Source of the DNA: Microbulbifer flavimaris
GTDB lineage: Bacteria; Pseudomonadota; Gammaproteobacteria; Pseudomonadales; Cellvibrionaceae
Reading direction: 5' to 3'
Assembly: GCF_001641755.2 (NCBI RefSeq)
Contig: NZ_LRFG02000002.1
Span: forward strand, 62,001 to 126,000
Length of the DNA stretch: 64,000 nucleotides
The notes under the pieces were generated by a model. It was not told the origin of the DNA. It saw only the letters and a program-made list of their open reading frames with translations, and did no database searches. The position numbers were made by a program, and so were the translations under genes. How positions within the stretch are numbered: the stretch's first letter is position 1; every line of letters begins with the position of its first letter. Shown piece after piece: positions 27,271 to 40,779 of this stretch.

Positions 27271-29130
27271 ATGCGACCAGTTCTACCAGCTCTCAGGCCC
27301 CAAGGCCCGTCTCTCACAAGCGCGGCGATGCTCCTGCTCGGCAGCCTGCTTGCCTCGTCCTGTGCCCAGCAGCAGCCCGATAACGAGTCAGCGCTGCTAC
27401 CAGAGGCGCCACCCGCCACAGAACAGCCTCAAGCTGCTAAACCAGGTGCAGAAAGTGAACCAAGGCCGGCTCAGGTCGCCAGCGAGGCACCGCAAACGCC
27501 ACCGGAAGAGTCCTCTCCCGTGCGGCCCTTTCCGATCGAGACTCTCTACACCCTGCTGGTGGCCGAGGTGGCTGGCAATCGGGAGCAGTTCGATGTCGCC
27601 CTTGCCAATTACTACCACCAGGCGCAGAGCACACGGGATGCCGGCATCGCCGCGCGCGCCACACGCATTGCGCGCTTTCTCAATGCCCGCCGCGCAGCAT
27701 TGCGCTCTGCCCAGCTGTGGGCTGAGCTGGAACCCGACGAGCCCGAAGCACAGCTGACCGCCACGGCAGAGCTGACCCTGGCCGGCGAGCTGGATCCAGC
27801 GCTGGTGCACGCTGAGAAAGCCCTGGAGCTGGGCGGAGACGCCCCCCTGCAATCCCTGGCAGCCACTGCTGTTTCGAACCCGAAACTGGTGGAGCGCATA
27901 ACACCGGAGTTTCGCCGTCTGGCGGAGAAATACCCCAACAATGGCGAGGCGGCGCTGGCCCACGCGATGATGCTGCGCGCTGCCGAGCAATATGACGCCG
28001 CACTGGCTATCGTGCGGCGCGTGAAGGAGCAGCACCCGACGATGCTGGACGCCCCGCTGCTCGAGTCTCACCTGCTGGCTGACCTGGAGCGGGAGGACGA
28101 GGCCCTGGCTTTGCTGGAGCAGATGGTAGCAACCTATCCACAGGAGACCCGTATTCGCCTGCAATACGCGCGACTGCTGGTCAGCAGGGATCTCGAACAG
28201 GCTCAGGAGCAGTTCACCACGCTGGTGGAACAGCGGCCGGGGGACGGAAACCTGATCCTGTCGCTAGCGCTGATTCGCATGGAGAGCGACGACTTTGCCG
28301 CTGCCGAGCCACTGCTGGAAAAACTACTGACGCTGGGACAACACGAGTCCGCGGCGCACTTTTACCTGGGCACCATTGCCGAACAGGCCCGCGACCCACT
28401 GCGCGCTGCCGCACATTACCGCAAGGTGGAACCGGGTAACGATTACATGCAGGCCATCACCCGTGGCACGGAGCTGCTGGCTGCCGTCGGTAAGAGCAAT
28501 GAAAACCAGCAATGGTTCGCAGAGTTGAGGCAACGACACCCGGAGCAGTCCGAGCATTTCTTTGTGATCGAGGCCAACCTGCTGCGGAAGTACGATCGCG
28601 CCCCGGATGCTCTGACTCTGCTGGACCGGGCTCTGGAGCAGCACCCTGGCAGCGGCCGCCTGATCTACGTGCAATCCCTGATTCACGAACAGCAGGGTAA
28701 CGTCGAGGCTTTCGAAAAAGGCGTGCGTCAGCTTCTGGCCCGCGACCCGGATAACGCCACGCTGCTGAACGCGCTGGGCTACAAGCTACTCGACGACGAC
28801 AGCCGCCTCGAGGAAGCACTGCAATTGATCACCCGTGCGCTAGAGCTGGAGCCAGACGACCCCGCCATCATCGACAGCATGGGCTGGGTGCAGTACCGTC
28901 TCGGCAACCACGCTGAAGCGATCCGCTACCTCGAACAGGCGCTGGAAAAGCTGCCCGATCACGAAATCGCCGCCCACCTGGGCGAAGTGTTGTGGATGCA
29001 GGGCAACCGTGAGCGCGCCATGCAGGTCTGGCAGCAAGGGCTCGAGATCAATCCCGACAGCGAGATCATCCCGGCGGCCATGGACAGACTGAAAAACATG
29101 AAACCTCTGGAGCAGCATGTATCCGACTAA
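27271..29130 (+). CDS. TPR-repeat lipoprotein upstream of lolB (PA4667-like)
   Basis: Tetratricopeptide protein of 619 aa. The N-terminus has a lipoprotein signal ending LLASSC, so the mature protein should be membrane-anchored in the periplasm. A Pro/Glu/Ala-rich linker runs to about residue 85, followed by TPR-type helix pairs to the end; the clearest is SMGWVQYRLGNHAEAIRYLE near residue 535. It overlaps lolB by 14 nt. A TPR protein at this spot is conserved in Pseudomonas (PA4667). Its biochemical role is unknown; the coupling to lolB suggests an outer-membrane function. Confidence 0.88.
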   Translation: MRPVLPALRPQGPSLTSAAMLLLGSLLASSCAQQQPDNESALLPEAPPATEQPQAAKPGAESEPRPAQVASEAPQTPPEESSPVRPFPIETLYTLLVAEVAGNREQFDVALANYYHQAQSTRDAGIAARATRIARFLNARRAALRSAQLWAELEPDEPEAQLTATAELTLAGELDPALVHAEKALELGGDAPLQSLAATAVSNPKLVERITPEFRRLAEKYPNNGEAALAHAMMLRAAEQYDAALAIVRRVKEQHPTMLDAPLLESHLLADLEREDEALALLEQMVATYPQETRIRLQYARLLVSRDLEQAQEQFTTLVEQRPGDGNLILSLALIRMESDDFAAAEPLLEKLLTLGQHESAAHFYLGTIAEQARDPLRAAAHYRKVEPGNDYMQAITRGTELLAAVGKSNENQQWFAELRQRHPEQSEHFFVIEANLLRKYDRAPDALTLLDRALEQHPGSGRLIYVQSLIHEQQGNVEAFEKGVRQLLARDPDNATLLNALGYKLLDDDSRLEEALQLITRALELEPDDPAIIDSMGWVQYRLGNHAEAIRYLEQALEKLPDHEIAAHLGEVLWMQGNRERAMQVWQQGLEINPDSEIIPAAMDRLKNMKPLEQHVSD

Positions 29131-29758
29131 TGAGATTTTCCAGGGCGCCCATTGCCGCCTGACAGTGAACCCGCCCACCATGCGGCTGGCCTTCTTGTGC
29201 CTGGTCGCACTGCTCAGCGCCTGCGCCACCCAGACACCGCAACCTCCGGTCGCCGCGGAACAACCGGTGATGCAGTTACAGCAGTGGACCATCAAGGGAA
29301 AACTGGGTGTACGCTCCCCCAATGACAACGGCAGCGCCAATCTCACGTGGCTGCAACAGTCGGAGCCCAATTACCGCATCCACCTGAGTGGCCCGCTCGG
29401 TGCGGGTGCCACGGTCATCAGCGGCACGCCGGCGGGCGTCAGCCTCAAGCGTGGTGATGACCCCACCACTCACGCCACCAGCCCGTCCCAACTGACCGCC
29501 CTGACCCTGGGGTGGCCGCTGCCGGTGGAGGAAATGTTTTACTGGGTGCGGGGCCTGCCCGCCCCGGGGCAAACCAGTGGCGAACAGCGGGATGCTCAGG
29601 GCCTGTTGCAAACCCTCCAGCAGGCCGGCTGGCAACTCAATTTCAGCGGCTACCAGAACGTGGGGGCTTACGTGCTTCCTACCCGCATCAAGGCAGAGAC
29701 ACGCCAGGCCGCCGGCCCGGTCAAGGTAACCCTGGTGATCAAGGAGTGGCTGCTCTGA
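29117..29758 (+). CDS. lolB: Outer-membrane lipoprotein insertion factor LolB
   Basis: Outer-membrane lipoprotein that receives lipoproteins from LolA and inserts them. The signal peptide has the lipobox LLSAC (Cys36 with this start). The mature part shows QQWTIKGKLGVRSPNDNGSANLTWLQ and the GWPLPVEEMFYWVRGLP segment, typical of LolB. ATG 29117 has GGAG 5 nt upstream and overlaps the TPR gene; it gives a long n-region. ATG 29180 would give a more ordinary signal peptide but lacks a ribosome site. Confidence 0.94.
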   Translation: MYPTNEIFQGAHCRLTVNPPTMRLAFLCLVALLSACATQTPQPPVAAEQPVMQLQQWTIKGKLGVRSPNDNGSANLTWLQQSEPNYRIHLSGPLGAGATVISGTPAGVSLKRGDDPTTHATSPSQLTALTLGWPLPVEEMFYWVRGLPAPGQTSGEQRDAQGLLQTLQQAGWQLNFSGYQNVGAYVLPTRIKAETRQAAGPVKVTLVIKEWLL

Positions 29759-29800
29759 CCCACCCCTGCGCACACAAAGGTTAAGTGCGCTGATTTCCCC

Positions 29801-29825
29801 GGGCCGCTATCATGGCGGCCCTTTT
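29801..29825 (+). terminator. Hairpin with short U-run between lolB and ispE
   Basis: GGGCCGC (29801-29807) pairs with GCGGCCC (29815-29821) around a 7-nt loop and is followed by TTTT. It could end or reduce transcription from hemA-divergent lolB into ispE, acting as an attenuator since no long gap follows. Confidence 0.5.
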
Positions 29826-29847
29826 CGGCCCGCGAAACGATCCAAGC

Positions 29848-30732
29848 ATGTCTCTGCAACTCCCCGCACCCGCCAAACTAAACCTGTTTCTTCGCATCCT
29901 CGGCCGTCGCCCCGATGGCTACCACGAGCTACAGACCCTGTTTCAATTGCTGGACTACGGCGACACCCTCGACTTTGAGCTTCGCAGTGACAGCGGGCTT
30001 TCAGTGGAGGCGCCGGGAGTGGATGTGCCGGAGCGGGACAATCTGGTTTACCGCGCCGCGCAGCTTCTGCAGAACACCTGCGGTACAGCGCAGGGGGCGC
30101 ACATCCGCCTGCAGAAGAGGTTGCCGGCAGGCGGCGGCATCGGCGGCGGCAGCAGCGACGCGGCCACAACACTGCTCGGCCTCAATCATCTCTGGCGCTG
30201 CGGTCTGTCCGTCGATGAACTGGCTAAACTGGGTCGACAGTTAGGCGCCGATGTTCCTGTTTTCGTTGCCGGGCATACCGCGTTGGCAGAGGGAACCGGC
30301 GAGCGACTGGTGCCGGTCAGAACCGCACCCTGCCATTTTCTGGTCCTCGCTCCCGACTGCCATGTGAGCACCGCGGCGGTATTCGGTCACCCGGGTTTGA
30401 CAAGAGATTCTGCCGCAATTACATTAGCGCACCTTCGCGACAGGGTGCTGGACAGCGACTGGCTCCAAAGCCACGCTGGCAACGATTGCGAGCCTCTGGT
30501 GGAGCAGCTATACCCCGAGATCCAAGCGACTCGGCAATGGCTGCAACAGCACGCCAGAGCGCAACTGACCGGCACTGGAGCCTGCGTATTCGCCGCCTTC
30601 CCGAGCGAATCAGAGGCGCAGGAGGTCCTCGAGCAGAGGCCTGAGGGTTGGCGCGGCTTTATTGCTGCCAGCGTCAACACATCGCCAGCACACACGGCGC
30701 TCGCGAAACTCACTTCCACCAGTGGCAAGTGA
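29848..30732 (+). CDS. ispE: 4-diphosphocytidyl-2-C-methyl-D-erythritol kinase
   Basis: GHMP-family kinase of the MEP isoprenoid pathway that phosphorylates CDP-ME. The 294-aa product begins SLQLPAPAKLNLFLRILGRR, with substrate motif DGYHEL and the ATP-binding glycine loop PAGGGIGGGSSDAA. The C-terminal LTGTGACVFAAF motif is present. ATG 29848 matches homologues; an in-frame ATG at 29812 lies in the loop of the preceding hairpin and is less likely. The order lolB-ispE-tRNA-Gln-prs is conserved. Confidence 0.97.
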   Translation: MSLQLPAPAKLNLFLRILGRRPDGYHELQTLFQLLDYGDTLDFELRSDSGLSVEAPGVDVPERDNLVYRAAQLLQNTCGTAQGAHIRLQKRLPAGGGIGGGSSDAATTLLGLNHLWRCGLSVDELAKLGRQLGADVPVFVAGHTALAEGTGERLVPVRTAPCHFLVLAPDCHVSTAAVFGHPGLTRDSAAITLAHLRDRVLDSDWLQSHAGNDCEPLVEQLYPEIQATRQWLQQHARAQLTGTGACVFAAFPSESEAQEVLEQRPEGWRGFIAASVNTSPAHTALAKLTSTSGK

Positions 30733-30742
30733 AAAAGATTAC

Positions 30743-30817
30743 TGGGGTGTAGCCAAGCGGTAAGGCAGCGGGTTTTGATCCCGTCATGCGTAGGTTCGAA
30801 TCCTACCACCCCAGCCA
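30743..30817 (+). tRNA. tRNA-Gln (anticodon TTG)
   Basis: 75-nt cloverleaf with encoded CCA: acceptor TGGGGTG pairs with CACCCCA, anticodon loop TTTTGAT gives TTG, T-arm TAGGTTCGAATCCTA, discriminator G. It starts ten bases after the ispE stop, so it is probably cotranscribed. It is identical in all 75 bases to the second copy at 36042-36116. Confidence 0.98.
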
Positions 30818-31024
30818 TATTTCGCTGACTGCGTTAATGCAGATCAGATCTCCGCGACTCGACAGGTTCGAGCCGACAAACTTGCGAAGCGAGTTTGGGC
30901 GTCGGAGTAGAAGTAAACGGACGGCGGGGCGCAGCCCCGAGCACGAAGTGCGAGACAACCGGCCGGGGCCGCCGGAGACCAGCGAGCCGCAGGCGACGCT
31001 AATCCTACCACCCCAGCCATTTTC
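30818..31024 (+). repeat. rtT-like unit after tRNA-Gln: duplicated tRNA 3' end
   Basis: The last 19 nt of the tRNA (AATCCTACCACCCCAGCCA) recur at 31001-31019, 202 bp after the genuine 3' end. The preceding part contains AGGTTCGAG (30864-30872), resembling the 5' half of the T-arm. In between are strong stems, for example GGGGC-GCA-GCCCC. The final stretch, GGAGACCAGCGAGCCGCAGG onwards, matches the unit after the second tRNA-Gln (36190-36240) nearly base for base. The arrangement parallels the rtT repeats of the E. coli tyrT locus. No protein-coding gene is supported. Confidence 0.75.
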
Positions 31025-31027
31025 ATC

Positions 31028-31057
31028 CCCGCCGGACTCATCCCTGAGACCGGCGGG
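31028..31057 (+). terminator. Hairpin after the first tRNA-Gln unit
   Basis: CCCGCCGG (31028-31035) pairs with CCGGCGGG (31050-31057). A second perfect stem, GCGGCAT/ATGCCGC, lies at 31089-31107. Neither has a U-run. They may mark the 3' end of the tRNA transcript or stabilise it ahead of prs. Confidence 0.4.
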
Positions 31058-31261
31058 ACACCCGGCCCGGCCGACAGGCTGGCTGGAGGCGGCATTATCC
31101 ATGCCGCACAGCTTACAAACCGGGTAAACGCCCTACCCCTTCGCGGCCGCCTGTGCCGCCACAGCAAAAGGTGACGCAATCGCGCGCTACAAGCTTACAC
31201 ACTGACAGGCATCTACACTTTTCACGTCCAGAAGAACTCAACAGAACCAAAGGTATTCGCA

Positions 31262-32203
<942 letters not shown>

Positions 32204-32390
32204 TGCCGTGATAACCGGGCCGCGCTCAGATTTTGTAGCGCTTTCCCGGCGATTCCCTTAGAATACGCGCCCGCCCGGCACTGCCGGGCGTTTACTATTG
32301 GGGATACGGGACTTTCCGTGCCCCATTTACAGCAACGCCAGAGCGGTCCGGTCGCAGGTCGCTCTGGGCAGACAACCCGAGGTTTACCCC

Positions 32391-33029
32391 ATGTCTGATT
32401 TCAAACTGAACGCCAACGTCCGCAGCGACGAAGGGAAAGGTGCGAGCCGCCGCCTGCGTCGCGAGGAAGGTCGTGTACCCGCCATCGTTTACGGCGGCAA
32501 GGCGAAGCCTGCCTCCATTTCCCTGCTGAGCAAGGAAATGTTCAAGGCCCTGGAAGATGAGACCTTCTTCTCCTCCGTACTGACCCTCGACATCGAAGGC
32601 AAGGAAGAAAAAGTGATCCTGCGTGACCTGCAGCGCCACCCGGCCAAGCAGATCCTGCTGCACGCTGACTTCCAGCGCGTATCCGCCAACACCAAGGTAC
32701 ACCTGAAAGTGCCACTGCACTTCCTGAACGAGGACAAGTGCAAGGGCGTGAAAGCAGGCGGCATCGTCTCCCACACCCTGAATGAGCTGGAAATCAGCGC
32801 CCCGGCCTCCAAGCTGCCCGAGTTCATCGAGGTAGACCTGGCAGACCTGGAGCTGGACGGCACTGTTCACATCTCCGACATCAAGCTGCCGGCTGGCGTC
32901 GAGTCTGTGGACCTGGCCCACGGCGAAGACCACGACCTGGTTGTTGCCTCCGTTCACATGCCCCGCGGCGCCATCGAAGCCGAAGAGGAAGGTGAAGAAG
33001 GCGAAGCGGCCGAAGGCGGCGAAGAGTAA
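32391..33029 (+). CDS. rplY: 50S ribosomal protein L25/general stress protein Ctc
   Basis: Long form of L25 (212 aa) that binds 5S rRNA. The N-terminal domain ([35 protein letters not shown]) is followed by the TL5-type beta domain and an acidic tail ([17 protein letters not shown]). ATG 32391 is used because homologues start MSDF; the frame is open upstream from 32298. The 187-bp leader has a possible -10 TAGAAT (about 32259) and the stem GCCCGGCA/TGCCGGGC, which may be involved in control. Confidence 0.97.
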
Positions 33030-33040
33030 GGGTCAATATT

Positions 33041-33649
33041 TTGGCCAAGGCACCGGACACACCGATCCAGCTGATCGTGGGACTGGGCAATCCCGGTCCC
33101 GAATACGATCGGACCCGTCACAATGCCGGTGCCGACTTTGTCACCGAGCTGGCGCGCCGCCACGGCGCCCAGCTCGCGTCCGACAGCAAGTACCGCGGTC
33201 TCACCGGCCGGGTACGGATCGGCGGGCAGGATGTACGCCTGCTGATTCCCACCACCTTTATGAATCGCAGCGGACAGTCAGTGGCCCCGCTGGCGAACTT
33301 TTTCAAGATTCCCGCCGAAGCCATTCTCGTCGCCCACGACGAACTCGACCTGCCACCGGGCACCGCACGGCTCAAGTCCAGCGGCGGACACGGCGGTCAC
33401 AACGGTCTGCGGGACATCATCTCCTCGCTCGGCAACAACCGCGATTTTATGCGGCTGAGACTGGGTATCGGACACCCCGGAAGCGCCCGCGAAGTGGTCA
33501 ACTTCGTGTTGCAGCGCGCCCCCCGAACAGAGCAGGAGCAACTGGCTGAAGCGATCGACCGCGCCGTCGACGTGATGCCCATCGCCGCCGAAGGCGATTG
33601 GGGCGCGGCCATGAAAACACTGCACACGGCAGCCACCGCGGCAAAATAA
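33041..33649 (+). CDS. pth: Peptidyl-tRNA hydrolase
   Basis: Cleaves peptidyl-tRNA released by stalled ribosomes. The 202-aa product has [22 protein letters not shown] with catalytic His27, [18 protein letters not shown] and [12 protein letters not shown]. The start is TTG 33041, with AAGGG upstream; no ATG or GTG is available before the conserved core. It lies 11 bp after rplY, so the two should be cotranscribed. Confidence 0.97.
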
Positions 33650-33722
33650 ACCTCCGCGGTGCCGGGTCGGTGCACCCCGAATCAACCGGCGCCACAGCGC
33701 CACTCGCAACGGAAAGAACACC

Positions 33723-34814
33723 ATGGGTTTTACTTGCGGAATCGTCGGCCTGCCCAATGTGGGCAAATCCACCCTGTTCAACGCCCTGACCAAAGCAGGC
33801 ATTGATGCAGAGAACTTCCCGTTCTGCACCATTGAGCCCAACGCCGGCGTAGTCCCGGTGCCGGACACTCGTCTCGACAAGCTGGCGGAAATCGTCAAGC
33901 CGCAGAAGGTAATCCCCACCACCATGGAGTTTACCGACATCGCCGGCCTCGTCGCCGGTGCCTCCAAGGGTGAGGGCCTGGGCAACAAGTTCCTGGCCAA
34001 TATCCGCGAGACCGACGCCATCGCCCATGTGGTGCGCTGCTTCGAGGATGAAAACGTCATTCACGTGGCCAACCAGGTACACCCCGTCGCGGACATCGAG
34101 GTCATCAACACCGAGCTGGCTCTGGCGGACCTCGACACCGTGGAAAAGGCTCTGCAGCGCTTTACCCGCGCCGCCAAAGGGCAGGACAAGCACGCCATCA
34201 AGATGAAGGCACTGCTGGAAAAGATTCAGCCGCACCTGGACGAAGCCAAGCCCCTGCGCTCATTCGGCCTCAGCGATGACGAGCTGGCAGACCTGCGCGA
34301 GCTGAGCCTGCTGACCATCAAGCCCACCATGTACATCGCCAACGTCGATGAGGATGGTTTCGAGAACAACCCGCACCTGGACGCAGTCGCTGCGATTGCG
34401 GCCGAGGAAAATGCCGTACTTGTCCCCATCTGCAACAAGCTGGAAGCGGAGATCGCTGAGCTGGATGACGATGAAAAGCAGGAGTTCCTTGAAGAGCTGG
34501 GTATGGAAGAGCCGGGCCTGAACCGCGTGATTCGCGCCGGATACCAGCTGCTGGGCCTGCACACTTACTTCACCGCAGGAGTCAAAGAGGTTCGCGCCTG
34601 GACCATTCCCCTGGGCGCCACTGCGCCGCAGGCTGCGGGCAAGATCCACACCGACTTTGAGAAAGGCTTTATCCGCGCCGAGGTAGTCAGCTACGCGGAT
34701 TTCGTCGCCTGTAATGGCGAGGCGGGCGCCAAGGAAGCGGGCAAGTGGCGCCTGGAAGGCAAGGACTACGTCGTTGCAGACGGTGATGTCATTCACTTCC
34801 GCTTCAACGTCTGA
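33723..34814 (+). CDS. ychF: Redox-regulated ATPase YchF
   Basis: Obg-family P-loop protein that prefers ATP and associates with ribosomes. The 363-aa product has Walker [34 protein letters not shown] (switch/G3) and a C-terminal TGS domain starting at [19 protein letters not shown]. The G4 region reads [11 protein letters not shown]. It follows pth, the usual neighbour. Confidence 0.98.
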
Positions 34815-34836
34815 TTACCGCCTCACGCCCTACCGC

Positions 34837-34857
34837 GCCCCTCGACAATCGAGGGGC
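34837..34857 (+). terminator. Hairpin after ychF
   Basis: GCCCCTCG (34837-34844), loop ACAAT and CGAGGGGC (34850-34857) form a perfect 8-bp stem 22 bp after the ychF stop. No U-run follows. It separates ychF from the EamA gene. Confidence 0.5.
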
Positions 34858-34889
34858 ACCCTCCCGCCCCAACCTCGACGATCGTCAAC

Positions 34890-35804
34890 ATGCACCCACC
34901 CAACTGGAAAGTCGGCCTGCCGCTGGCGCTGATCACCGCATTCATGTGGGCCCTGCTACCGATTGCGCTAAAGGGCCTGCTGGATTCCATGAGCGCGACC
35001 ACCGCCACCTGGTACCGCTTTGTGGGCGCGGCTGTGCTGGCCGGCACCTATTACGGCTGGACCCGGCAACTGAACCTGAGGCAACTATTTGAGCGGGGGC
35101 TGCTACCGCTGACGGTCATTGCGGTGCTCGGGCTGCTGACCAACTACCTGACCTACGCCTCCGGCCTGCACTTCATCACCGCCGGCGCCGCGCAGATCGT
35201 GATCCAGCTGGCACCGCTGCTGCTGCTGACATCCAGCGTCCTGTGGCTGGGCGAGCACTTCTCACCCCGCCAGTGGCTGGGGGTCGCCATGGTGGTGGGC
35301 GGCCTGCCGCTGTTTTTCAACCAGCGACTGCCGGAGCTGGCGAGCGGTGCCGACGCCGATTACCTACTGGGCCTCGGGCTGATCGTGGTGGCGGCCGTGG
35401 GCTGGGCCATCTACGGCTTCTTCCAGAAGAAGATCCTGGGCCGCGCCAAGCCCCAGGACCTGCTGGTGCTGATCTACATTGCCGGCACACTGTGTTTCCT
35501 GCCGCTTGCGGATCCACTTTCCGCGTTGACGCTGGACTGGCTCGGCTGGGCCCTGCTGATCTTCCTCACCGCCAACACCCTGATTGCCTACGGCGCCTTT
35601 ACCAAGGCACTGGCGCACTGGGAAGCCTCCCGGGTCAGCGCTACCCTGGCACTGGTGCCGTTACTGACACTGGCGATCGGGGCCCTTATCGGCGCGGTCT
35701 GGCCAGACTATATTGAAGTGGAGCCGATGAACTGGATCAGCTGGCTGGGGGCTGCCACTGTCGCCAGTGGCTCTCTGTTCGCGGCAATCGGCAGGGGGCG
35801 CTAG
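34890..35804 (+). CDS. EamA/DMT family transporter
   Basis: Drug/metabolite transporter superfamily protein, 304 aa, with ten membrane helices in two EamA halves (LALITAFMWALLPIALKGLLD and LIVVAAVGWAIYGFFQKKILG). The motif ALAHWEASRVSATLALVPLLT near helix 9 is typical. Substrates of this group are usually metabolites or amino acids; nothing nearby identifies one. ATG 34890 has no strong ribosome site. Confidence 0.88.
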   Translation: MHPPNWKVGLPLALITAFMWALLPIALKGLLDSMSATTATWYRFVGAAVLAGTYYGWTRQLNLRQLFERGLLPLTVIAVLGLLTNYLTYASGLHFITAGAAQIVIQLAPLLLLTSSVLWLGEHFSPRQWLGVAMVVGGLPLFFNQRLPELASGADADYLLGLGLIVVAAVGWAIYGFFQKKILGRAKPQDLLVLIYIAGTLCFLPLADPLSALTLDWLGWALLIFLTANTLIAYGAFTKALAHWEASRVSATLALVPLLTLAIGALIGAVWPDYIEVEPMNWISWLGAATVASGSLFAAIGRGR

Positions 35805-35868
35805 ACACTCTTCTCAGGTGGGTTCAGGCGATGACGCTAACTCACTGAAAATTCAGCAAAAAAGGGGG

Positions 35869-35897
35869 TTGACAGCCCCACCCTGGAGTCCCATAAT
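35869..35897 (+). promoter_or_regulatory. Sigma-70 promoter of the tRNA-Met/tRNA-Gln transcript
   Basis: A perfect -35 TTGACA (35869-35874) and -10 CATAAT (35892-35897) are separated by 17 bp, followed by a GC-rich discriminator (TCGCGCCC), as in stringently controlled stable RNA promoters. The start point would be at about 35904, some 25 nt before tRNA-Met. Confidence 0.85.
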
Positions 35898-35927
35898 TCG
35901 CGCCCTCGGTTAGCCGAGACTTTCAGT

Positions 35928-36004
<77 letters not shown>

Positions 36005-36041
36005 TTTTCCTCCTGCGAGAGGCTTCTCGCAGCACCTTTAC

Positions 36042-36116
36042 TGGGGTGTAGCCAAGCGGTAAGGCAGCGGGTTTTGATCCCGTCATGCGTAGGTTCGAAT
36101 CCTACCACCCCAGCCA
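36042..36116 (+). tRNA. tRNA-Gln (anticodon TTG), second copy
   Basis: 75-nt tRNA with encoded CCA, identical to the copy at 30743-30817. It lies 37 nt after tRNA-Met, so the two are probably one transcript from the promoter at 35869. The spacer holds a small stem (GCGAGA/TCTCGC, 36016-36031). Three further copies of its 3' end follow. Confidence 0.98.
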
Positions 36117-36445
36117 TTTTCTTACCTGCTCAACCACTGCTGAAAAGCGGATAAACATAGGTTCGAGCCGGAGCTGGCGGTAGCCAGCGGAGACCAGCGA
36201 GCCGCAAGGCGACGCTAATCCTACCACCCCAGCCATTTTCTTCTCTGATCCAAACCCAATCCGGAAGCCATTCATTTGAGATGAAGCCAGATGGATCAGC
36301 GAGCCCGCAGGGCGACGCTCATCCTACCACCCCAGCCATTTTCCTCTCCGATCCAGCCTTTACTTCAAAGCTTTATAAATCGAGATCAAACTGGACGACT
36401 TAGTGAGCCCGACAGGGCGACGCTAGTCCTACTACCCCAGCCATT
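36117..36445 (+). repeat. rtT-like tandem array: three units carrying the tRNA-Gln 3' end
   Basis: The 3' end of the tRNA recurs at 36217-36235 (19/19 nt), 36321-36338 (18 nt) and 36425-36443 (17/19), at periods of 119, 103 and 105 bp. Each copy is preceded by a variant of AGCGAGCCCGCAGGGCGACG and followed by CATTTTC. Unit 1 begins with TAGGTTCGAG (36158-36167), like the 5' T-arm half. A degenerate fourth unit may follow to about 36525. One frame encodes the recurring peptide ATLILPPQPFSS in successive units, but no ribosome site supports translation. Confidence 0.8.
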
Positions 36446-36605
36446 TTCTCCCCTGTTCCGGAAGCCACCTCAGAAGCTATCTATCTGAGTTGAAGCTGAA
36501 GGGACCAGTGGGGCCAGTGAGCAGCGCACTCGCCGAGCGCCAGCGATCCCGGGGAGCTTAGCGGGAAAAGAGTGAGGGCGAATAGATTTCAAGCCGGGCC
36601 GGAAT
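36446..36605. other. Spacer after the tRNA repeat array
   Basis: Part of the 489-bp stretch between tRNA-Gln and the TauE-like gene. The first 80 bases resemble the repeat spacer (CCGGAAGCCA, then TGAGTTGAAGC), suggesting a decayed fourth unit without the tRNA end. The stem GGCCGG/CCGGCC at about 36597-36615 overlaps the stop codon of the convergent gene and may end transcription from both sides. No gene seen. Confidence 0.45.
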
Positions 36606-37640
36606 TCATCCGGCCTGGGGCACCTGAATGCCGCTGGAAGACAGGCCTGAGGACGCCTCAGGACGAGGACGCCGCCGACCAATCGACCGCAGCCATTCGA
36701 AGCCGAGAAGCCCCAACAGCACGGTCGCAGCCACGATTACCGCACCCGCGGGACCGATGGCCTGCCACTCCACGTAGCAGGTCCAGAACAGCTGCACCAC
36801 GCACAAGCAGGCCACCACCAGCAGTGTGGGCTTGCGACCAATCAGGCTGACCACAAACACCCCCAGGGGCGCCCCAAGGGCAACCACGGGTGCCGCCGCC
36901 ATCCAGTTGCCAAACACCTGAGGGTGCCAGTCGCCAGACAGGCTTTTGACGACCACGCCGATCACGGAACTGAATGCCATGATGACCACAGACGTGGGAA
37001 TCGCCACTTTCAGATCCACGCGACACATCAGCACCAGCACCGCGTAAATCAGCATATCGATGCCAACCCCGGTCGTCGCCACCGCAGAGGCACCGGCCAC
37101 AGCGCCAAGCCAGGCTCCAAGCCGAAAATCCCGCTGCGGCTCACTGTGGGGACAGGCGTTATGCGCTGTGATCTCATTGAGCCGATACAGGTGCAGGAGG
37201 CCAAAACTGCCCCATAGCACGGCAAACACCAGCTTGACCCACAGGTCAGGTATGGCCGGTGCCACGAACAGAATGCCGAGTGGTGTCCCCAACAGGGAGC
37301 CAAGCATGGCACCGCGCAGCATCGGCCACGCCAGTGTCTGGTGGCGGGCCAGAATAAAGAGGCTTGCGCTGACCATACCGATGGACTGAACTGCGAAACT
37401 GAAGTCGCGCCCGAGACTTGCGGGCATATCGAACAGCAATACCAGCACCGGGAAGCCGACCGTGCCGCCACCCATAGGCGTGGACCCGGCGGCGTAACTG
37501 CCGATAGCCATGGACAGCGCCATTGGCCAGTGCTCGCTGGCCAAGCCCCAGTGCCCCAGCCCGAAGGCGAGCAGTAGCCAGGCCACATAAAACAGCAGCA
37601 GACCCGCTAGCCAGAGCTTCATGCCCCTCAACAGCGCCAT
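36606..37640 (-). CDS. TauE/SafE family membrane transporter
   Basis: Sulfite exporter TauE/SafE family protein, 344 aa, with about eight membrane helices. The first repeat contains GSYAAGSTPMGGGTVGFPVLVLLF and the second ASAVATTGVGIDMLIYAVLVL, the duplicated motif of this family. Members export sulfonates or small organic anions; the substrate here is unknown. ATG 37640 overlaps the stop of the halogenase-like gene (TGATG), so it is translationally coupled to that cassette. GTG 37643 is an alternative start. Confidence 0.85.
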   Translation of the reverse strand: MALLRGMKLWLAGLLLFYVAWLLLAFGLGHWGLASEHWPMALSMAIGSYAAGSTPMGGGTVGFPVLVLLFDMPASLGRDFSFAVQSIGMVSASLFILARHQTLAWPMLRGAMLGSLLGTPLGILFVAPAIPDLWVKLVFAVLWGSFGLLHLYRLNEITAHNACPHSEPQRDFRLGAWLGAVAGASAVATTGVGIDMLIYAVLVLMCRVDLKVAIPTSVVIMAFSSVIGVVVKSLSGDWHPQVFGNWMAAAPVVALGAPLGVFVVSLIGRKPTLLVVACLCVVQLFWTCYVEWQAIGPAGAVIVAATVLLGLLGFEWLRSIGRRRPRPEASSGLSSSGIQVPQAG

Positions 37641-39184
37641 CACCCGACCTCTATCATCTCGGGCCGCACTTCTGCGGGCAGGGTACGCAGGAAAGCCTTG
37701 TGTTCCATTGACGCCACTTTCGCGCGACGAACCATGTCTTCAAAGCGCTGGAACAGTCCTTGCTGCTCCTCTTCTGAGAGCACGAACTCGAGGTCTGGCT
37801 TGTGCTGCATTCCGTAGAGTACGTACCGATAGCTGGAATCGGTGAAGATACTGGAGTAACTACCGGCGAAGTCCTGGTACTCACAGATTTTGTGCCGCCA
37901 GATTTCCAGCTGACGCTGCAGCCAGGGGCAATGCTCCACCGTTGCCGAAGCCCCGCGCCAAAAATCACTGTCATCGCGATCACTGAGGCAGTAGTGCAGG
38001 ACAATGAACTGTTTCAGGTCGTGATAGAAGCCACGCATTTTTTCGTTGTAGGCATCGCGAAGCGCCTGGGGCACCTCCCCTGCAGCGAGATGTGTCGCCA
38101 GCAGGCTCACCCCCAAGTGGATCATATGCAGCCCCGTGGATTCCAGAGGCTCGATAAATCCGCCGCTGAGGCCAATAGCTACGCAGTTACCGATCCAGAA
38201 TCGGTCCCTGCAGCCCACCTTCATTTCCAGATGCGTGCACTTGAGAGACTCGCTGTCCGGGCCGAGAAATTCACGCAGCTCCCGCTCCGCCTCTTCCGGC
38301 GAAATGCGGTCCGAGTCATACACGTAGCCACTGCCCTGACGATTGACCAGGTCAATCTGCCAAGCCCAACCATTACTGAGCGCGGTAGCTACGGTATAGG
38401 GTTTGGGTCCATCGCCCTCCGGCAGAGGGCGCTGGATCGCAACCGCGCGATCACACGGCAGCGCATCCGAGAAGGAGTGCCAGTTGTCTTCGGCGAGCTT
38501 TTCCAGGAGTAACCCGCGAAAGCCACTACAGTCGACGAAAAAATCACCGGTAAACTCGCCGCGATCCGTAGTCACGCTCAGCACTCGGTCTCCCTCTACC
38601 GTGACATCAGAAACGCTGGCCTCTACGTGCTCTACGCCAGCCTCCACCGCGTTCTTTCGCAGGTAGCGGGCGAGCAGCTTCGCATCCAGGTGATAACCAT
38701 AGGGTGTCACTGCCTGAAAAGGCGGGGACGACATCGTTTTCGGGCAACGCCCCTCCTCAATAAGGTGGGCATTGAGACTTACCGCCTGATCGTAGCGCTG
38801 CCATGCATCCCGATTGGCAATAAACCAGGCGGAGGAAATATCCACAGAGCCACCCGGCTGTTGCTGGTCGAAAGGATGGAAATACTCATGCGGCTCGCTG
38901 CCTTGCGGTTTATTCCAGTTGCGGAACATGATGCCCGCCTTTACCGTGGCATTGGTCTCCGCCATCAGCTCTGCTTCATCAAGCCCCATCGCGGCAAAAA
39001 AGAAGCGGATGCTATGTACCGTGGCTTCCCCCACGCCGATGATGCCCACGTCCGGGCTCTCAATGAGACGAATAGAAAAGTTCTTTTTTCCGCGGTTGAA
39101 ATAACGGTTGAGGTAAATGGCCGTCATCCAGCCGGCAGAACCGCCACCGATAATATTGATGACCCTTGTCTGCTTTTCTTTCAT
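37640..39184 (-). CDS. Tryptophan-halogenase-like flavoprotein (1)
   Basis: Member of the flavin-dependent tryptophan halogenase family, 514 aa. It has the FAD motif IIGGGSAGWMTA (residues 11-22), IGVGEATVHSIR, and Lys82 (NATVKAGIMF) at the position of the catalytic lysine of PrnA. The diagnostic WxWxIP motif is altered: W273-A-W275-Q-I-D278. PLESTGLHMIH keeps the Glu equivalent. Family members of this type occur next to TonB receptors and SapC in polysaccharide degraders and have no proven halogenase reaction. It lies 6 bp after the second paralogue and is coupled to the TauE-like gene. Confidence 0.88.
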   Translation of the reverse strand: MKEKQTRVINIIGGGSAGWMTAIYLNRYFNRGKKNFSIRLIESPDVGIIGVGEATVHSIRFFFAAMGLDEAELMAETNATVKAGIMFRNWNKPQGSEPHEYFHPFDQQQPGGSVDISSAWFIANRDAWQRYDQAVSLNAHLIEEGRCPKTMSSPPFQAVTPYGYHLDAKLLARYLRKNAVEAGVEHVEASVSDVTVEGDRVLSVTTDRGEFTGDFFVDCSGFRGLLLEKLAEDNWHSFSDALPCDRAVAIQRPLPEGDGPKPYTVATALSNGWAWQIDLVNRQGSGYVYDSDRISPEEAERELREFLGPDSESLKCTHLEMKVGCRDRFWIGNCVAIGLSGGFIEPLESTGLHMIHLGVSLLATHLAAGEVPQALRDAYNEKMRGFYHDLKQFIVLHYCLSDRDDSDFWRGASATVEHCPWLQRQLEIWRHKICEYQDFAGSYSSIFTDSSYRYVLYGMQHKPDLEFVLSEEEQQGLFQRFEDMVRRAKVASMEHKAFLRTLPAEVRPEMIEVG

Positions 39185-39190
39185 GGTTTT

Positions 39191-40759
39191 TTATATCTTT
39201 TGCAGGCCGAACTGCTTGATCTTCCTGATCAGCTCCCGGTGCGCGGGCAATTGCTCGCAGAGCTGCCGCGCCCCGGCCTCAATTTCGACAAAACGGGCAA
39301 GCGCATTGTCATCATCCGCAAAGCGGTTACTGATGTGCGCAGCAGAGGTCACGAAGTCCATACCGTAGAGGACGTACAGGTAATTCGGCAGGTTGAAGAT
39401 TTCCATCTTGCTGGGAAAGTCATAATCGGATGGCGGCTGGCAGCGCCACAGTGCCAATTTTTCACGCAGTGCTTCAGGTATGGATTCCGCTGCACGGTTA
39501 TCCAGCCAGAAGTCGCTGTCAGTGCGCTGGGAAATGCAGTAATGCAGTTTGATAAACTCAATCACCCGCTCCCACGCATAGCGGACATGCCGATTAAACT
39601 GCGCCGCCACGGTCGACATGACCTCGCGGTTCGCCGGGAAAGTATCGGCGAGCATTTTCGCCGTGGCGTCATACACGAGGATGCCCGTCGCCTCCAGAGG
39701 CTCAACAAAACCCTGGGACAGGCCGATGGCAACGCAATTGCGCTCCCAAAAGCGATCCCGGTAACCAATTTTCATCGGAATGCGGCGCACCTCGGCATTC
39801 TCACCGGCGGCACCCAGGTAATTTCGAAAAACCGTTTCCGCTCGCTCATGATCGGTGTGCGCACTGGAATATACATAACCCGTTCCGCGACGCTCCGGCA
39901 GCCCTATATCCCAGATCCAACCACTCTCCTGGGCGGTCGAAATCGTATAACTCGGAATGGGCGCATCCATCTGCCCATAGGGCACCTGGGCCGCCAGGGC
40001 ATGGTCCGCAAAGAGGACATCGGTGCGATCGATAAACGGGACATCCAGGGACTGCCCCAGCAGCAGGGAGGCGAAGCCGGTGCAATCTACAAACAGATCC
40101 GCCTCAAGTGCCCCGTGACGATCAGTGACCACAGCAGCAATGTCGCCATCATCCGATCGCCGCACCTGCTCTACCGTGCCGAGCAGATGGCGAACACCCA
40201 GTTCCTCCACCGCATGGCGCGTCAGCAGGCGGGCGAACTTTGCAGCGTCCAGATGGTAGGCGTAACTGGTAAGCCCCTGATACTCGGGCAGGGTCATGTT
40301 CTTCGGACCCAGCCCCCGATCGCACACCAGCCCCTGCACGGAGACGGCATCGACAAATGAGCGGCCGGTGCCGGCCTGCTTCAGCCAGTAAGGGGTGAGG
40401 TCACCGCGACGAGTGTCCGGATAGTCAAAGACATGGTGGTAGTAATCGCTACGACCAGCGACAGGATTGTGCACCCAGTCCACGAATTTGATGCTCTGCT
40501 TGAAGGAGGCATCACACTCACGGATAAATTCGGTCTCGCTGATTCCCAGATACTGGAGCGTCTGACGGATGGCTGGCACCGTCCCTTCACCCACACCAAT
40601 AGTCGGGATATTGTCTGACTCGAGGAGGGTGACCCGGACACCATCAGGTGACCGGGCCCGAAGCTTCTTGGCCAGGTGGCTGGCGGTCAGCCAGCCAGCG
40701 GTACCTCCACCCACAACCAGCACATGCTGGATGTGACCGGATGTTGCCGCACTAGCCAT
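39191..40759 (-). CDS. Tryptophan-halogenase-like flavoprotein (2)
   Basis: Second member of the family, 522 aa, clearly diverged from its neighbour. It shows VLVVGGGTAGWLTASHLA, IPTIGVGEGTVPAIR and Lys87 (ASFKQSIKFVDW) as catalytic-lysine equivalent. The WxWxIP motif reads W281-I-W283-D-I-G286, again lacking Pro. VDCTGFASLLLGQ and GFVEPLEATGI are conserved. ATG 40759 is preferred over TTG 40765, though the ribosome site is weak. It lies 20 bp after sapC in the same direction. Confidence 0.88.
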   Translation of the reverse strand: MASAATSGHIQHVLVVGGGTAGWLTASHLAKKLRARSPDGVRVTLLESDNIPTIGVGEGTVPAIRQTLQYLGISETEFIRECDASFKQSIKFVDWVHNPVAGRSDYYHHVFDYPDTRRGDLTPYWLKQAGTGRSFVDAVSVQGLVCDRGLGPKNMTLPEYQGLTSYAYHLDAAKFARLLTRHAVEELGVRHLLGTVEQVRRSDDGDIAAVVTDRHGALEADLFVDCTGFASLLLGQSLDVPFIDRTDVLFADHALAAQVPYGQMDAPIPSYTISTAQESGWIWDIGLPERRGTGYVYSSAHTDHERAETVFRNYLGAAGENAEVRRIPMKIGYRDRFWERNCVAIGLSQGFVEPLEATGILVYDATAKMLADTFPANREVMSTVAAQFNRHVRYAWERVIEFIKLHYCISQRTDSDFWLDNRAAESIPEALREKLALWRCQPPSDYDFPSKMEIFNLPNYLYVLYGMDFVTSAAHISNRFADDDNALARFVEIEAGARQLCEQLPAHRELIRKIKQFGLQKI

Positions 40760-40779
40760 CAGCAAGTTTCAACGCTGCC

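Follow-up and report, generated by a model that had tools for sequence, protein, structure and literature searches.

Probable tRNA-linked repeats behind two tRNA-Gln genes of Microbulbifer flavimaris and their relatives in Gammaproteobacteria

tRNA-linked repeats (TLRs) have been known in Escherichia coli since 1978 (PMC8144298), with neither their function nor their origin settled. According to the same account, E. coli K-12 carries 22 TLRs at ten loci, including rtT/RttR at tyrT-tyrV and others and rrA, rrB and rrF at rRNA operons; a TLR has a 3′ end of 18-19 bp that is the same as the 3′ end of the upstream RNA gene (the tail rule), and three rRNA-linked TLR RNAs bind Hfq and CsrA (PMC8144298). 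RtT-family RNAs are reported to be expressed in Actinobacillus pleuropneumoniae (PMC4986893), rtT-like sequences occur in BIME-containing attenuators (PMC2965389), and RtT contains a tandem GA motif (PMC7657543), which recalls the A/GA loop of the units described here.

We analyzed repeat units behind two tRNA-Gln genes in a 64,000-nt stretch of the M. flavimaris genome (the window). The units share with the E. coli TLRs the tail rule, the tandem arrangement, the T-arm motif GGTTCGA, and hairpins followed by AATCC and the tail. They differ from them in host (tRNA-Gln), in genus, in their shorter bodies, in the lack of a 5′ arm complementary to the tail and, in units 2 and 3, in the lack of GGTTCGA. 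Reading of the tRNA-Gln operon of E. coli revealed no unit behind glnX. The window array belongs to a known kind of repeat, the TLR.

Layout and conservation of the units behind tRNA-Gln

An earlier note on this DNA had described a tandem array with periods of 119, 103 and 105 bp behind the second tRNA-Gln, in which the end of the tRNA recurs three times within a conserved frame and a decayed fourth unit follows. The repeat finder and the tail copies agree on this array: a 51-nt family starts at 36083, 36202, 36305 and 36410 (spacings of 119, 103 and 105), and copies of the last 18 nt of the tRNA start at 36218, 36321 and 36426, with 0, 0 and 2 mismatches, respectively. The conserved frame reads AGYGAGCC-N{2,12}-GGCGACGCT in the three array copies, and the 5′ half of a fourth unit was also recognized (Table 1). 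The array is therefore real, but its first description was incomplete, having overlooked the unit behind the first tRNA-Gln (30818-31019).

Table 1. Features of the two tRNA-Gln loci in the window (R1, body-only model described in the text)
Feature	Position	Strand	Remarks
First tRNA-Gln(TTG)	30743..30817	+	tRNA gene
Gln1 unit	30818..31019	+	single, long; R1 body match 30875-30942; hairpin 30981-31000; tail 31002-31019
Promoter-like site before tRNA-Met	35869..35897	+	TTGACA, 17-nt spacer, CATAAT; 11/12 consensus matches
tRNA-Met(CAT)	35928..36004	+	tRNA gene; tandem with second tRNA-Gln
Second tRNA-Gln(TTG)	36042..36116	+	tRNA gene; array host
Unit 1	36117..36235	+	GGTTCGA at 36160; hairpins 36173-36188 and 36196-36216; tRNA tail 36218-36235
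Unit 2	36236..36338	+	short form without GGTTCGA; hairpin 36298-36319; tail 36321-36338
Unit 2 helix	within 36236..36338	+	CTGATCCA/TGGATCAG; sequence reading
Unit 3	36339..36443	+	short form without GGTTCGA; hairpin 36402-36424; tail 36426-36443
Fourth-unit remnant	about 36444..36525	+	5′ half of a unit, tRNA tail absent; sequence reading

Each tail copy in the array consists of the 3′ strand of the T-stem, the 3′ strand of the acceptor and the CCA of tRNA-Gln. Identity with the 3′ end of the host was 18/18 in the Gln1 unit, unit 1 and unit 2, and 16/18 in unit 3. Behind the core hairpin of unit 1 (AGCG-A-GCC-loop-GGC-GA-CGCT) come the final 18 nt of the tRNA. A hairpin body splits the T-loop after TTCGA in both unit 1 and the Gln1 unit. 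TLRs lie in tRNA or rRNA operons, with between one and five units at a locus, and the one and three units found behind the two tRNA-Gln genes correspond to this rule. As far as identity is concerned, and leaving role as a separate question, it is highly probable that the array is a TLR of the RtT type. Tandem duplication is probably the way in which it grew. The fold of the whole array was no better than that of shuffled sequences (z = −0.82).

The 202-203 nt behind the first tRNA-Gln showed 97, 89 and 92% identity among three species (G000, G075 and G067), compared with 73-75% over the 150 nt preceding the tRNA and 66-69% over the 150 nt that follow the unit (gapped global alignments). In the comparison with G067, identity was 74-79% in the first 45 nt, 93-96% in the middle and 91-96% in the last 45 nt of the unit. 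Since identity within the unit (89-97%) exceeds that of its flanks (66-75%), the Gln1 unit looks to be under constraint. The second array changes faster: tandem tails with such spacing were present in 3 of the 48 genus genomes, a restriction that counts against TLR identity, and at the same locus G075 has two units, of which the latter has a decayed tail.

The minus strand of the window also carries, at 37640-40765, a pair of neighboring ORFs (514 and 524 aa) for candidate flavin-dependent tryptophan halogenases.

Relation to RtT and structure of the wider family

The Rfam family RtT (RF00391) and the Gln units have in common the order of the body and the last hairpin before AATCC, but the two are not equivalent. 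RtT had no match in 35850-36700 even at E 10, and the Gln units of both loci stayed below the 45-bit gathering score. The closing helix of RtT was also absent from them, with no complement of the tail before GGTTCGA on reading of the sequence. The absent match and the absent 5′ arm (helix P1, below) argue against TLR identity, as do the unremarkable fold of the whole array, the lower identity of the first 45 nt of the Gln1 unit to G067 and the chance-level scores of units 1-3 with the body model R1 (below). Judged by their sequence, the Gln units are derived members, that is, TLRs by the tail rule and not RtT by Rfam's rule.

Five matches to RtT at E ≤ 1 were obtained in the M. flavimaris genome. 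The unit behind tRNA-Ser(GCT) matched with 31.5 bits (cut-off 45) and an E value of 9.7e-5 in a 161-nt scan and of 0.019 in a 31-kb scan. Among the 48 genus genomes, 22 had a match at E ≤ 1 and none had one over the cut-off. The term "rtT-like" given to the array in the earlier note is right in kind: sub-threshold RtT matches stand at other tRNA genes of the same genome, and such units have their body in common with the Gln units. Unit 1 could be aligned with a tRNA-Gln unit of G100, the units behind Ser-GCT in four Microbulbifer genomes and those behind Ser-GGA and Arg-CCG in M. flavimaris itself (eight rows, 73% mean column identity). In these eight rows, every cell of the first hairpin of unit 1 was paired; three of its pairs were compensated and its covariation was 0.208 (vs. 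0.085 in shuffles, 0/500). The fourth pair of the second hairpin was broken in six rows.

At least 66 of 369 gammaproteobacterial genomes matched RtT at E ≤ 0.001, and at least 23 exceeded the cut-off; both are lower bounds, as eight candidates were scored per genome. Some of the matches over the Rfam cut-off lay directly behind tRNA-Gln. The earlier note knew of no report for tRNA-Gln in this lineage, and we also found none: the literature searched, partly in the form of excerpts, gave no report of a TLR or RtT behind tRNA-Gln or in Microbulbifer, which is weak evidence of absence. The case is less singular than it had appeared, as E. coli has 22 such repeats at ten loci and other gammaproteobacterial tRNA-Gln genes have RtT matches.

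From the searches of the genus and of Gammaproteobacteria with RtT, 60 loci were taken. A tRNA or tmRNA 3′ end was found close upstream on the same strand at 49 of them (14 tmRNA, 13 Ser, 10 Gln, 8 Tyr, 2 Asp, 1 Lys and 1 Phe), at −12 to 80 nt from the model start; at the remaining 11, no host RNA gene was found. The tail was tested over the last 16 nt of the host at all 35 tRNA-hosted loci. It was present with two or fewer mismatches in 28 units and absent from seven, and foreign host tails, with more than three differences, gave 0 matches in 916 comparisons. Among tmRNA-hosted units, the full tail was found in 1 of 14, and 13 of 14 had four to eight mismatches; in Microbulbifer, these units keep only the part of the tail up to CCCGCCA (sequence reading).

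Alignments A1, A2 and A3 were compiled. A1 contains 58 of the 60 loci (without L097 and L098) and E. coli. A2 contains 35 units, comprising 27 of 30 class loci (without L104, L119 and L127), 6 of 30 genus loci, L057 of M. flavimaris and E. coli; it excludes the tmRNA-type units and the other units of the genus, whose tails are incomplete or shifted in register. A3 omits units with short bodies as well as L094, L115 and L116 (run of N), and adds three tmRNA-type units; every row starts in the T-loop, and two rows reach into the tail, by five and by two bases.

The units in A2 have a common anatomy, in which the 5′ arm pairs with the tail (P1) and GAACC with GGTTC (P2), followed by a CCC-GNA-GGG hairpin and by a last hairpin before AATCC. 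The covariation of this 19-pair structure was 0.202, compared with 0.120 (SD 0.011) in shuffled alignments (0/500). Cells with two-sided change numbered 51 vs. 20.6, and further pair types 27 vs. 23.1 (15/500). Seven pairs showed two-sided change, all in P1, which was not above the shuffled number (6.6). All slid versions of the structure were lower in both covariation and cells paired. Without guidance, RNAalifold recovered from A2 six pairs of P1, four of P2 and three of the last hairpin, with 5 of these 13 compensated. At the eight variable positions, the 5′ arm formed 178 pairs with its own tail and 144.4 (SD 5.8) with permuted tails (0/10,000), a comparison in which pairing is favored because most A2 units were found by a model with the P1 helix inside, and in which the tail permutation partly has the same bias. 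At least 10 of the 12 P1 pairs were formed in 16 of the 35 units, and the helix comes near the acceptor and T-stem helix of a tRNA. In L107, L108, L111, L117 and L120, the 5′ arm is the exact or near reverse complement of the T-arm.

Beyond the CCA, 11 of the 29 units with a good tail still matched the host (≥14/15) and 18 diverged (≤11/15) with the tail kept. The 11 resemble tandem copies, as would be expected if the repeats were by-products of tRNA processing, with tails restored by gene conversion with the tRNA gene and an RNA that does nothing. PMC8144298 also records the withdrawal of the function formerly ascribed to the tyrT repeat of E. coli, which is in line with this explanation. Conversion, however, accounts neither for the end of identity at CCA in 18 units, nor for the covariation between 5′ arm and tail, nor for the conserved middle of the Gln1 unit, and we regard a mere by-product as doubtful. 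The relatives show which parts are kept, namely the tail of the host as far as CCA and a 5′ arm that changes with it; since these are kept across Gammaproteobacteria, processing and function can be tested by comparison.

Units at other tRNA genes of M. flavimaris

The M. flavimaris genome comprises 3.64 Mb in 30 contigs, with 71 tRNA genes. The frame AGYGAGCC-N{2,12}-GGCGACGCT occurs at four sites in the whole genome, three in the array and one behind the first tRNA-Gln. An ordinary dispersed repeat is ruled out in this genome, as the frame is confined to these tRNA-Gln-linked sites. Copies lacking tRNA neighbors, which for the earlier note would have marked the unit as such a repeat, did not appear in this genome, although in certain other gammaproteobacteria there are dispersed relatives of the wider RtT body. 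With unit 1 as the query, a similarity search returned eight matches, made up of all four units, both tRNA-Gln genes and two weak matches, one behind tRNA-Arg(CCG) and one without a tRNA. Among 144 family genomes, the Gln hairpin pattern matched in eight, three of them with tRNA-Gln arrays (M. flavimaris, G067 and G075). The single matches L013, L014, L015, L018 and L019 have no tRNA within 3 kb and were taken as chance.

The own tail recurred within 700 nt downstream with two or fewer mismatches behind 5 of the 71 tRNA genes, whereas swapped tails recurred behind a mean of 0.25 (maximum of 1 in 20 permutations); the reverse strand gave 0. With up to four mismatches, the number was 7 of 71, compared with 0.8 for swapped tails. 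The hosts at these seven loci are two tRNA-Gln genes, Ser-TGA, Ser-GCT, Phe, Arg-ACG and a tRNA-Met gene, behind which the T-arm is simply duplicated and the body is absent. Sequence reading added the Ser-GGA and Arg-CCG units.

Further units were sought with R1, a body-only model made from the A3 bodies of other genomes, with no row from M. flavimaris. R1 is in effect a sequence profile, since the body model has only two base pairs. In the window, the Gln1 unit ranked first (29.7 bits, E 4e-4; next match, 19.1), and units 1-3 were not above chance. In the scan of this genome, which covered 32 stretches, R1 added two tRNA-Asp genes, Leu-CAA, a tmRNA 3′ end and a contig end that starts in an Asp-like tail, and its matches sat at tRNA or tmRNA ends. 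Overall, units stand behind at least 11 of the 71 tRNA genes (Met excluded) and behind a tmRNA end.

At L055 (C4:133000-138000), one tRNA-Met is followed by decaying duplicates of its T-arm and 3′ end and by a terminator-like stretch; there is no body, so that the tail is duplicated and the insert is missing. At L051 (C1:454500-462000), tRNA genes are packed into about 5 kb (C1:455556-460255), including a very weak one (37.8 bits), and the region is perhaps a mobile tRNA island. At L074/L177 (C2:304800-308300), a tmRNA 3′ end has two RtT-type units behind it; ARAGORN, in tRNA mode only, shows no RNA gene at this place, and an island may have separated the end from the rest of its gene.

tmRNA, tRNA-Ser, tRNA-Arg and tRNA-Phe genes are common integration sites. 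Their presence among the hosts favors an interpretation in which the units mark the attachment site, or are the remains, of integrative elements targeting tRNA 3′ ends, as does the L074 tmRNA end without a tmRNA or tRNA gene by ARAGORN (tRNA mode only). Against this, the T-loop is split in unit 1 and the Gln1 unit, no integrase was noticed on reading the ORFs of 28000-40000, and nothing was seen that points to element integration as the present role of the site. We consider this interpretation very improbable.

Expression, role and origin of the units

A promoter-like site lies about 30 nt before tRNA-Met, where one was found and 0.4 were expected in shuffles (consensus match only). Since the consensus scan found no terminator-like site between tRNA-Gln and the array, we infer that the array units would be transcribed together with tRNA-Met and tRNA-Gln. 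At other loci of the genome, a terminator-like hairpin with a T run separates the tRNA from the unit (sequence reading), so that read-through would be needed there; read-through is reported for the rRNA-linked TLRs of E. coli (PMC8144298). Once transcribed, the units may be cut by tRNA-maturation enzymes into small structured RNAs with tRNA-like ends. The likeliest role, which is weakly supported and offered here only tentatively, is that of a structured trailer that gives RNase E and exonucleases a tRNA-like end, or of a stable small RNA derived from it.

At least 61 of 185 gammaproteobacterial genomes matched R1 at E ≤ 0.01. Among the matches listed (30 loci, the best one per genome), ARAGORN placed a tRNA or tmRNA no more than 112 nt upstream of 18, another 7 had tRNA-like flanks by eye and 5 had no tRNA-like flank (L137, L140, L141, L153 and L159). 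In G265, there were nine further R1 matches apart from the tRNA-linked ones; seven were read, and none of them had a tRNA in 1.7-1.8 kb. These bodies (L163-L169, L171 and L173) are near-identical, RtT-like and contained in a longer repeat that is spread over the chromosome away from tRNA genes, as observed in the seven of nine that were read.

Several tRNA genes were found to be interrupted by a body. Three tandem tRNA-Gln copies are split after GGTTCGA and are followed by an intact tRNA-Gln in L172, a split tRNA-Arg lies ahead of an intact copy in L152, and a tRNA-Ser split in the D-loop lies ahead of an intact copy in L156. In L181, the body is inserted in frame in a gene, and the Agarilytica homologue (39% identity) has a gap of 24 residues at that place, which is the length of the body translation. 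The split tRNA genes and the in-frame insertion suggest a palindromic mobile element as the source of the TLR body. The reverse direction may also apply, with bodies escaping from tRNA sites.

These observations could mean that TLRs are captured mobile elements, a reading whose probability falls somewhat short of even. A palindrome of about 75 nt would enter tRNA T-loops after GA and become a constrained RNA with a tRNA end. The interrupted copy would drop its 5′ half and keep a 5′ arm that covaries with the T-stem and acceptor strand of the host, and the source element would occur elsewhere, inside and between genes. If true, capture occurred behind many tRNAs and the tmRNA in Gammaproteobacteria, both tRNA-Gln genes of the window included, and the origin of E. 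coli rtT would be explained. The interrupted tRNA genes are a concrete lead on TLR origin.

The same evidence bears on a rival explanation, in which TLRs are small palindromic mobile elements in tRNA T-loops and the Gln arrays are old, functionless insertions multiplied by unequal crossing-over. The split genes next to intact copies, the in-frame insertion, the copies away from tRNA genes in G265 and the 5 of 30 best-per-genome matches without a tRNA-like flank are all in its favor. It is rather unlikely, however, given that the Gln1 unit is more conserved than its flanks, that tails are preserved to CCA in 18 of 29 units with later sequence diverging, and that body matches in M. flavimaris lie at tRNA or tmRNA ends.

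Rickettsia palindromic elements offer a parallel by description only: they are in-frame insertions in genes, of about 150 bp (PMC10969869), and RtT-like bodies of other gammaproteobacteria likewise lie in coding sequence and at sites distant from tRNA genes. Unlike those elements, the RtT-like bodies measure about 75 nt, belong to other organisms and also occur in tRNA genes. Neither T-loop insertion as the origin of TLRs nor tailoring to the host across Gammaproteobacteria was found in the literature searched, partly excerpts, which is weak evidence of absence. At L159 (G317), the body match adjoins a group II intron match (the end of Rfam group-II-D1D4-1).
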